Positions 23,857 through 27,708 of a DNA stretch of 64,000 nucleotides are shown one piece after another. Positions within the stretch are counted from its first letter, which is position 1; every line of letters begins with the position of its first letter. The notes under the pieces were generated by a model that did not search any database, was not told the origin of the DNA, and saw only the letters and a program-made list of their open reading frames with translations. Source of the stretch: Porticoccaceae bacterium. Its GTDB lineage: Bacteria > Pseudomonadota > Gammaproteobacteria > Pseudomonadales > Porticoccaceae. Both the position numbers and the translations under genes were made by a program. The stretch lies in contig JAQWGK010000050.1 of the NCBI GenBank assembly GCA_029238255.1, positions 124,001-188,000 on the forward strand, written 5' to 3'.

Positions 23857-25686
23857 ATGTGTGGAATTGTAGGTGCAGCATCCCAGAGAAATATTTATAA
23901 AATATTAATTGAAGGTTTACGTCGCCTTGAATACAGAGGCTATGATTCCGCAGGCCTATCGATTTTAGATGGTGAACAGGCGCTACAAACCCGCAAAACG
24001 ATCGGCAGAGTTGCCGACCTGGAAAAGCTCACAGCCCAACAGAGCATTGCGGGTAGCACTGGTATTTCCCACACCCGCTGGGCCACTCATGGTGAGCCGA
24101 GCAGCGTTAACTCTCATCCACACACCTCTTCTGGTGTGTCCGTTGTCCACAATGGCATTATTGAAAATCATGAGCAGTTGCGCGCTGAAGTCAAAGCCCT
24201 GGGCTACGAAATTCTGTCGGCAACCGATACCGAAGTCATTGCGCATTTAGTACATCATCAATTAAAAACTGATGCTGATTTACGCACCGCAGTAGAGAAA
24301 ACAATTTCCAAGCTAGAAGGTGCCTATGCGCTGGGAGTAATTTCAGATACTCAACCAGAGACAGTGATCGGCGCTCGTAGCGGCAGCCCATTGGTTATTG
24401 GCCTTGGCATTGATGAAAACTTTATCGCCTCAGATCAGATGGCACTGCGTCAGGTAACCGATCGCTTTGTATTTCTGGAAGAGGGAGATCTGGTAGAAAT
24501 CTCTAGCGCCAGTTACAGTATTTTTGATCAGTCAGGCAGTGAAGTTGAACGGCCAATTAATCAATTAGATGAAAAAGATCTGATTGCAGAAAAAGGCCAG
24601 TACCGACACTTTATGCAAAAAGAAATTTTTGAGCAGCCAACGGTTTTAGCCAATACAACCGCAGGCCGAATAGCCGGGGATCATATCCGCGAAGCGATCT
24701 TTGGCTATCAGGCAGAAGCGCTTTTTGCGCAGACCAATAATATTCATATAGTCGCCTGTGGCACCAGTTTTCATTCCGGTCTGGTCGCCAAATACTGGTT
24801 GGAAGAAAATACTGGCCTACCCTGTCAGGTAGAAGTCGCCAGTGAATACCGTTACAGAACAGTGCCAGTTCCTGCCGGCACATTGTTTGTCACTATCTCC
24901 CAGTCCGGGGAAACCGCGGATACACTAGCCGCACTGCGCAAAGCAAAAGACAGTGGCTATCTGGGCTTTGTAGCGATCTGTAATGTCGCCAACAGCTCAT
25001 TGGTTCGTGAATCCGATATCTCCTTAATGACGATGGCCGGCCCGGAAATTGGCGTGGCATCGACCAAAGCATTTACCACTCAGTTAGTCGCCCTTCAGTT
25101 GCTTACTCTCTCACTGGGTCGCCATAAAGGATTGGATTCAAAAGTTGAAAAAGAGCTGGTGGAAAGTCTTCATAAGCTACCAGAACTCTGTACGGCCGTA
25201 CTCGAATTGGACTCTGTTATTCAGCAGATGTCAGAGTCATTTGCCAACAAACATCACGCACTATTTTTGGGTCGTGGCGAGCAGTATCCCATCGCCCTTG
25301 AAGGCGCACTAAAGTTAAAAGAGATCTCCTATATCCATGCCGAGGCCTACCCTTCCGGCGAATTAAAGCACGGCCCACTGGCACTGGTCGATGAAGATAT
25401 GCCGGTGGTTACAGTGGCACCAAATAATGAATTACTTGAAAAATTAAAATCCAATTTACATGAAGTTCGCGCTCGAGGTGGAGAGTTATTTGTCTTTGCC
25501 GATGCCGATGCTGGCTTTGTTAGCGAGCCCGGAACAACCGTTATCGCCATGCCCCATGTGCCAAAAAGTTTGGAGGCAATTATTTATACGCTGCCATTAC
25601 AGATGCTCTCTTATCATGTGGCTTTGCTGAAAGGCACTGATGTGGACCAACCACGAAATCTAGCAAAGTCAGTGACTGTGGAATAG
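23857..25686 (+). CDS. glmS: Glutamine-fructose-6-phosphate aminotransferase
   Basis: Converts fructose-6-phosphate and glutamine to glucosamine-6-phosphate, the first step of amino-sugar synthesis. The true start is the ATG at 23857, because the catalytic Cys must follow the initiator Met ([12 protein letters not shown]). The ORF track start at 23746 lies inside glmU. It has 609 residues, the normal length. The glutaminase domain includes [18 protein letters not shown]. Two SIS domains contain [18 protein letters not shown] and [13 protein letters not shown], and the end is LAKSVTVE. No glmS ribozyme is expected in this group and none is evident. Confidence 0.98.
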
Positions 25687-26029: not shown

Positions 26030-26188
26030 TAACAAATAAAAAAACGCTTTAATCCGAATCAGCTCAGTTACTGTCGAGTAATTAATAGTCACGATATTTA
26101 ATCGGTGTTCTATAAAAATACTCAATCAGTAAAATAGTCTTTGCACTACACTTTACAAATTAAAACTATTTTTAGGAAGGGAAACATT

Positions 26189-26350
26189 GTGGGCGGGCTA
26201 ACGACAGCAGGATTTATGTTTGGAATTATGGGAATGTCTTTTGGAATAATAGGGTTTGCTTTTGGTGTAATTTCTTTAAGCAGAGTTGGCAAAATTTCAA
26301 GACAACTGGAAGAAAAGGGAATTCTGGAAGAGCCTTCTAAGACAGATTAA
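26189..26350 (+). CDS. Small one-helix membrane protein, paralogue of downstream gene
   Basis: I choose the GTG at 26189 because AGGAAGGGAAA precedes it. The ORF track extends 16 codons upstream without a ribosome site. The 53-residue product has a Gly/Phe-rich hydrophobic helix (AGFMFGIMGMSFGIIGFAFG), then a charged tail with VGKISRQLEEKGILEE. The 42-residue product at 26711 has the same plan (VVGFVFGLMGM, LEKLVKTLKEKGVLDE). The two look like diverged tandem copies. Function unknown. Confidence 0.6.
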   Translation: MGGLTTAGFMFGIMGMSFGIIGFAFGVISLSRVGKISRQLEEKGILEEPSKTD

Positions 26351-26377
26351 ATTGCTTTTTTATTAGGTAATTATCGA

Positions 26378-26698
26378 GTGACAGCATTTTTTAAAAACAC
26401 TTATTTTTTATTACCAATAATTTATTGGCTGGGAGCGTTACTTGAATCTGGTGATGCTCTAATAAGAGATGCGTGGTTTGGGATGCCTTTTTTTGCATTA
26501 GGAATCTACTTCCTTTTTAAAAAAAATATTAGCAATAAGTTTTTATCCTGCGCTTATTTAGCTCATGTCCTGTTTGATCTTTTGTATTTAGTTTTAATCA
26601 AAGAATCTTATATGCTCAATTTTTACGAAGAGATATGTATTGTTTATGATCTAGCGGTCGGCATTATTCTACTCAATTTAAGAAAATCACAAAAATAA
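26378..26698 (+). CDS. Small multi-pass membrane protein, unknown
   Basis: A 106-residue frame starting with GTG at 26378 (MTAFFKNTYFLLPIIYWLGALL). It is strongly hydrophobic, with about four predicted membrane segments: FLLPIIYWLGALL, MPFFALGIYFLF, CAYLAHVLFDLLYLVLI and ICIVYDLAVGIILLNL. I do not recognise the family. Its base composition is more AT-rich than the flanking housekeeping genes. It sits between the two paralogous one-helix genes, so the three may form one transcript. Confidence 0.55.
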   Translation: MTAFFKNTYFLLPIIYWLGALLESGDALIRDAWFGMPFFALGIYFLFKKNISNKFLSCAYLAHVLFDLLYLVLIKESYMLNFYEEICIVYDLAVGIILLNLRKSQK

Positions 26699-26710
26699 AA
26701 AGGAAAACTT

Positions 26711-26839
26711 ATGGATGGGTTAGCAGTAGTCGGATTTGTCTTTGGGCTAATGGGTATGATCGCCTTTGTAAGGCTGGAAAAGTTGGTAAAAACACTTAAG
26801 GAAAAAGGCGTTTTAGACGAAGATTACAAAGACGAGTAA
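26711..26839 (+). CDS. Very small membrane protein, paralogue of 26189 gene
   Basis: A 42-residue frame below the ORF-track cut-off: MDGLAVVGFVFGLMGMIAFV, followed by a charged amphipathic tail ending DEDYKDE. The AGGAAAA at 26701 is a good ribosome site. Similarity to the 53-residue product upstream supports that it is coding. The stop is 5 bp from the convergent hexR stop. Confidence 0.6.
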   Translation: MDGLAVVGFVFGLMGMIAFVRLEKLVKTLKEKGVLDEDYKDE

Positions 26840-26844
26840 TCAGT

Positions 26845-27498
26845 TTATTGGCTGCGCAGTGATGCTAGCCCAGCCTGTAGCTGTTGCAAATGCTCTTCCA
26901 ACTGTGGCCCTTTCTTTTGCGCGACACCAATCGCCAGTACATCGAGAACTGCAAGATGAGCAATTCTTGAAGATAGCGGTGTATAGATTTGAATATCCTC
27001 TTCGGCGTTTACCTCAATAGCAATATCGGCTTTTCTGGCGATTGGCGAATTACTTGGCGCCAGACTAATAACAAGACCCCCCGCTCTCTTAACCAGATCC
27101 ATAGAATCCAGTAGCGCTTTGGTGCGGCCGGATTGCGAGATCGCCACCACCATGCTGTCGCGAACCTTGAGTAAGGTGTCGACCGTTGAATCAAATACCT
27201 TGTGGGTGTACTCGCGGGTTGAGTCTGTATCTGTTACCGCAATTTGACCATAGCTAGGACTTGAAGCCAGCTGCTGTGCCAGCGCCAGTTTAAAATCCTG
27301 AAAACCGTGACAGCCAACAGCCCGACAAAAACGTACCACCGTAGGCTCACTAACACCCGCCTGCTGAGCCAGATCGACAATCCGCATACGGATAACCCCT
27401 AAAGGTTCTTTAAGGACAAATTCAGCGACTTTACGCTCGGACTTGCGCAGTTTGGTTAGGGTGTCGCTAATGGTTTGTGTCAGCTGTGCGGGTTTCAT
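26845..27498 (-). CDS. hexR: HexR/RpiR-type regulator with internal SIS deletion
   Basis: RpiR-family repressor. HexR controls Entner-Doudoroff and related sugar genes and responds to 2-keto-3-deoxy-6-phosphogluconate. The N-terminal HTH (RIVDLAQQAGVSEPTVVRFCRAVGCHGFQDFKLALAQ) is complete, and the C-terminus (DIQIYTPLSSRIAHLAVLDVLAIGV) is typical. The protein has 217 residues against about 285-290 for HexR. VDTLLKVRDS runs directly into MVVAISQSGRTK, skipping the first half of the SIS domain with its phosphosugar-binding GLGAS-type motif. The frame is preserved. It may be a ligand-insensitive repressor or a decaying gene. A HexR-box-like palindrome lies 73 bp upstream. Confidence 0.85.
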   Translation of the reverse strand: MKPAQLTQTISDTLTKLRKSERKVAEFVLKEPLGVIRMRIVDLAQQAGVSEPTVVRFCRAVGCHGFQDFKLALAQQLASSPSYGQIAVTDTDSTREYTHKVFDSTVDTLLKVRDSMVVAISQSGRTKALLDSMDLVKRAGGLVISLAPSNSPIARKADIAIEVNAEEDIQIYTPLSSRIAHLAVLDVLAIGVAQKKGPQLEEHLQQLQAGLASLRSQ

Positions 27499-27570: not shown

Positions 27571-27585
27571 TGTAAAAAATTTACA
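27571..27585. promoter_or_regulatory. HexR-box-like palindrome
   Basis: TGTAAAAAATTTACA is a perfect inverted repeat (TGTAAA-AAA-TTTACA) resembling the known HexR operator pattern TGTARTWWWAYTACA. A half-match TGTAGTAAAA follows at 27600-27609. The site lies between divergent hexR and uvrD, consistent with autoregulation. Confidence 0.65.
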
Positions 27586-27708
27586 AGAAATCCCGATTTT
27601 GTAGTAAAAAGTTCGAAGGTGGCCTAGATTGCCGCAACAAAAATAAACTCAACATAAACATTATTTTGCCCAACAACTGCTCGGGACATATTGTTAGAAT
27701 ACGGCTCT

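Follow-up and report, generated by a model that had tools for sequence, protein, structure and literature searches.

The gene at positions 26845-27498 of the window (the whole 64-kb stretch of DNA that was analysed) is probably a recently disabled copy of rccR, a paralogue of hexR whose product senses KDPG; the single species concerned belongs to the SAR92 clade (Porticoccaceae). An in-frame deletion of 195 bp has removed the initial half of the SIS fold along with four KDPG contacts, and another deletion, of 11 bp, has removed a conserved promoter element. In the scenario that we propose, the 217-aa product would misfold and fail to bind DNA properly, transcription would be lowered by the weakened promoter, and the loss would be tolerated, with HexR still controlling the Entner-Doudoroff genes. 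The relevant features of the locus are the following:

26845-27498, minus strand: shortened rccR-type gene of the MurR/RpiR family, with ATG start, 217 codons and a stop
27262-27486, minus strand: HTH_6 (RpiR) DNA-binding domain, intact, residues 5-79; AlphaFold pLDDT mostly 83-96
27151-27154, minus strand: deletion junction at codon 116, with 195 bp (65 codons) gone in frame
26848-27150, minus strand: SIS remnant, comprising the third beta strand (VVAISQSGRTK) and everything C-terminal to it
27571-27585, no strand: conserved palindrome TGTAAATTTTTTACA, intergenic towards uvrD, retained in the window
27597-27605, no strand: conserved element ACTACAAAA (gene sense), retained and now 11 bp nearer the palindrome
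27599-27600, no strand: site of the 11-bp deletion, from comparison with relatives

A first-pass annotation had described an open reading frame of 217 residues at this place, with its HTH kept and about 70 residues of the SIS domain, including the phosphosugar loop, lost in frame. The reading frame, its ATG start and its minus-strand orientation were confirmed, and alignment and Pfam agree on the nature of the loss, which is specific to this genome. The size of the loss is, however, 65 residues, and the relatives are longer as anticipated but measure 282 aa instead of 285-290. The junction had been expected near 27150; DNA alignment with the nearest genome, G018, against which 195 bp are absent, places it at 27151-27154, with an ambiguity of 3-4 nt and without a long repeat. 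In protein alignments with relatives, the 65 residues are missing between VRDS and VVAISQSGRTK as a single gap, the rest being colinear and in register on both sides. Codon 116 is ATG (Met) in the window gene and encodes Leu in all six relatives compared. Residues 5-79 match PF01418 (HTH_6) with 83.1 bits. Of the Pfam SIS model, which has 131 positions, the window protein covers no more than 53-130; coverage in the G018 orthologue begins at position 3. Because both halves match one orthologue (96% and 93% identity), the truncated gene is not a product of chance. Elsewhere in the genome, the missing segment has no counterpart other than a part of the true HexR with 40% identity. The junction 18-mer had one match in viral contigs, in the integrase gene of a phage contig, which was dismissed as chance.

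The 195-bp deletion is restricted to one genome within the genus. Named relatives of the source genome are SAR92-clade Porticoccaceae such as HTCC2207. When 50 genomes of this genus were surveyed, the gene was unbroken across the junction region in 37 others and the gap was found in none of them (one of the 37, G015, has a gene that stops at residue 263, where the contig ends). The idea that all relatives might share the short form, contemplated in the first-pass annotation, is thus at odds with the data. Loci in the GTDB collection are either full length or cut by contig ends only. Seven congeners without a detected gene (G010, G013, G022, G025, G027, G029 and G030) were left out of the count because an absent stretch of a bin is indistinguishable from gene loss; none of them shows a close uvrD match and most lack a close glmS match, and gene loss was not accepted as the explanation. 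A split match in G031 was rejected as a frameshift, as it reflects a run of N in the scaffold.

An allele found in no other genome, in a draft of 2.2 Mb (98% complete, 79 contigs) and with flanks that evolve as if functional, might also be an artefact of assembly or strain variation; the species would then have a full-length rccR, and the contig would be a chimera or carry a minority allele. This explanation seems unlikely. The junction lies mid-way in a 327-kb contig, and an ambiguity of a few bases is too short for k-mer assemblers to collapse. Furthermore, the promoter carries a second, separate deletion, and the other genes of the window match G018 without comparable internal gaps: when the 64-kb window is aligned to G018 by blastn, only three other gaps reach 8 bp or more, all of 9-10 bp, which makes the rccR locus unusual.

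In the model of the full-length protein, the lost part comprises helix 118-130, strand 134-137, helix 141-155, strand 160-163 and helix 166-174. The SIS fold thereby loses its first half, with three helices and two strands. With it are gone the KDPG-pocket residues S139, H148, R152 and H164 (RccR numbering), all present in relatives, and the window copy does not have a complete SIS domain with a KDPG pocket. The remnant keeps S121, S123 and R215, which are equivalent to RccR S183, S185 and R277. In the RccR-KDPG structure, these seven residues are among nine contacts, and each of the substitutions S139A, H148A and H164A alone abolishes DNA binding by P. aeruginosa RccR (PMC10810197). AlphaFold predicts the HTH of the window protein with high confidence, but the mean pLDDT beyond the junction is about 50; in the full-length orthologue, most of the SIS domain reaches 85-96. 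The Foldseek TM score to RccR falls from 0.63 for the full-length orthologue to 0.34 for the window protein. Because AlphaFold is no stability test, these models are taken as supporting evidence only.

The first-pass annotation had proposed a constitutive or re-purposed repressor. Such a regulator would dimerise through its HTH and bind the operator whether or not the ligand is present, either repressing constitutively or interfering with intact regulators as their dominant-negative partner. We find this quite improbable: RccR no longer binds DNA when any one of S139, H148 or H164 is replaced by alanine, the window protein has lost all three residues, its SIS remnant is deprived of three helices and two strands and models poorly, and its promoter is damaged. 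A functional truncated protein would, on the other side, agree with the confidently modelled, intact HTH, with the strong purifying signal on the remnant and with the palindrome kept before the gene. Loss of function is favoured by the combination of lost DNA-binding residues, a poorly modelled SIS remnant and a damaged promoter. Counting against it are the intact palindrome, the occurrence in one genome only, the preserved reading frame and a dN/dS like that of functional genes; the latter two fit a recent event, without proof of loss. More generally, an intact HTH does not justify calling a short RpiR protein a constitutive repressor, since RccR needs its sensor domain for DNA binding.

The promoter lesion became apparent when upstream regions were compared. 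In 37 of 47 relatives, ACTACAAAA, usually followed by a CTRGCA element, is separated from TGTAAATTTTTTACA by a variable stretch. These two blocks lie 22 bp apart in 32 relatives and 21 bp apart in five, but 11 bp apart in the window. The lost 11 bp, which read CTGGCATTAAA in G018 (gene sense), include the conserved CTRGCA element; among the 50 genus members searched, the window genome alone has the shortened form. The TGTAAATTTTTTACA palindrome is likely an autoregulatory operator overlapping the promoter; CTRGCA is a candidate -35 box, in which case the -10 box would overlap the palindrome. One might speculate that the 11-bp change, about one helical turn, is compensating rather than damaging, and that the 217 residues form a functional mini-regulator (HTH plus half a SIS domain) that acts on an rccR/hexR-type operator without sensing KDPG. 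We give very little credence to this view.

The window gene is RccR-type, a sister paralogue of HexR and not HexR itself, as it had initially been named. Among solved structures, 8ju9 and 8k3b come closest to it, and both are P. aeruginosa RccR. In phmmer, the full-length orthologue scores 312 bits to 8ju9, compared with 233 for the paralogue on contig C57. In the tree, the window clade groups with 8ju9 (95/89, then 100/97); E. coli HexR and the C57 gene are placed elsewhere. With the NCBIfam HexR model PRK11302, whose cut-off is 296 bits, the window protein scores 198.9 and the full-length orthologue 288.3, both below the cut-off, while the C57 gene reaches 416.2. The latter is an intact HexR of 285 aa (C57:42852-43679), the second copy that the first-pass annotation had suggested looking for, and sits in an Entner-Doudoroff cluster with pgi, edd, glk (glucokinase), eda, zwf, pgl, pyk (pyruvate kinase) and gap. 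The window gene has as neighbours uvrD on one side and, on the other, small ORFs that follow glmS; it is unlinked to zwf, edd, gap or pyk, and the gene of this type also directly adjoins uvrD in G044, a genome of another family. With HexR (E. coli YebK type) it shares membership in the RpiR family, the HTH plus SIS architecture and about 40% identity.

RccR and HexR are paralogues with 43% identity, and both sense KDPG in Pseudomonas (PMC5489143). The full-length SAR92 orthologue is 54% identical to RccR (PA5438 in P. aeruginosa, PFLU6073 in P. fluorescens) and shares with it the domain order, the tree clade, the conserved S183, S185 and R277, and the presence of a 15-bp palindrome upstream of the gene itself. 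The palindromes differ, however, as TGTAAATTTTTTACA stands in SAR92 where RccR has TGTAGT-N3-ACTACA, and the window copy departs further from RccR by lacking the 65 residues with their four KDPG contacts. In the SAR92 orthologue, residue 273 (window residue 208) is Gln at the place of the KDPG contact K270, and Thr replaces S188; ligand contacts or response may therefore differ.

RccR binds KDPG and controls aceE, aceA and glcB. In G000, TGTAGT palindromes are not enriched (42, compared with 80 for a control pattern), and no evident RccR site was found upstream of aceA. Isocitrate lyase is present in 10/10 genomes tested; loss of a presumed target was rejected as the cause, since G000, G017 and G018 have this enzyme alike. 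TGTAAT-N3-ATTACA sites at the edd/pgi region were likewise discarded as sites of the window gene and credited to HexR because genomes in which no window-type gene was detected have them too.

The same gene is damaged in the sister species G017, which belongs to the same subclade as the window genome according to HexR-based placement. In G017 (L046:4850-5846), the gene as assembled has an in-frame premature TAA at codon 270, and the TGTAAATTTTTTACA palindrome is lost. These lesions are a second set, independent of those in the window, so that two separate decays of the gene appear to be under way within this small subclade. Compared with G018, the remnant has a dN/dS of about 0.03, within the range of other window genes, and normal synonymous divergence, so that either the lesions are recent or the remnant is still constrained. 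The window lineage has five amino acid changes of its own, none of them before the junction; they are too few to weigh. With true HexR intact in the same genome, the rccR copy is most likely falling out of use as a tolerable loss. The window case, most likely an ordinary decaying gene, shows a metabolic regulator that is probably on its way out in a marine lineage that retains the paralogue.

Additional observations were made in the window. The glmS gene (23857-25683) has 86.7% amino acid identity to its G018 counterpart and a dS of 1.86, whereas genes upstream are mostly at 94-99%; this divergence suggests allele replacement by recombination in one lineage. Between 47689 and 52709, protein identity to G018 is mostly 66-80%, with dS of about 1.2-2.9, compared with about 88% identity in the surrounding synteny, and the segment is likely recombined or fast-evolving. 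About 470 bp at 26233-26701 do not align to G018 and hold a small membrane ORF (26378-26698). Two look-alike short ORFs flank this stretch, at 26141-26350 and about 26711-26840, and may represent a duplication.
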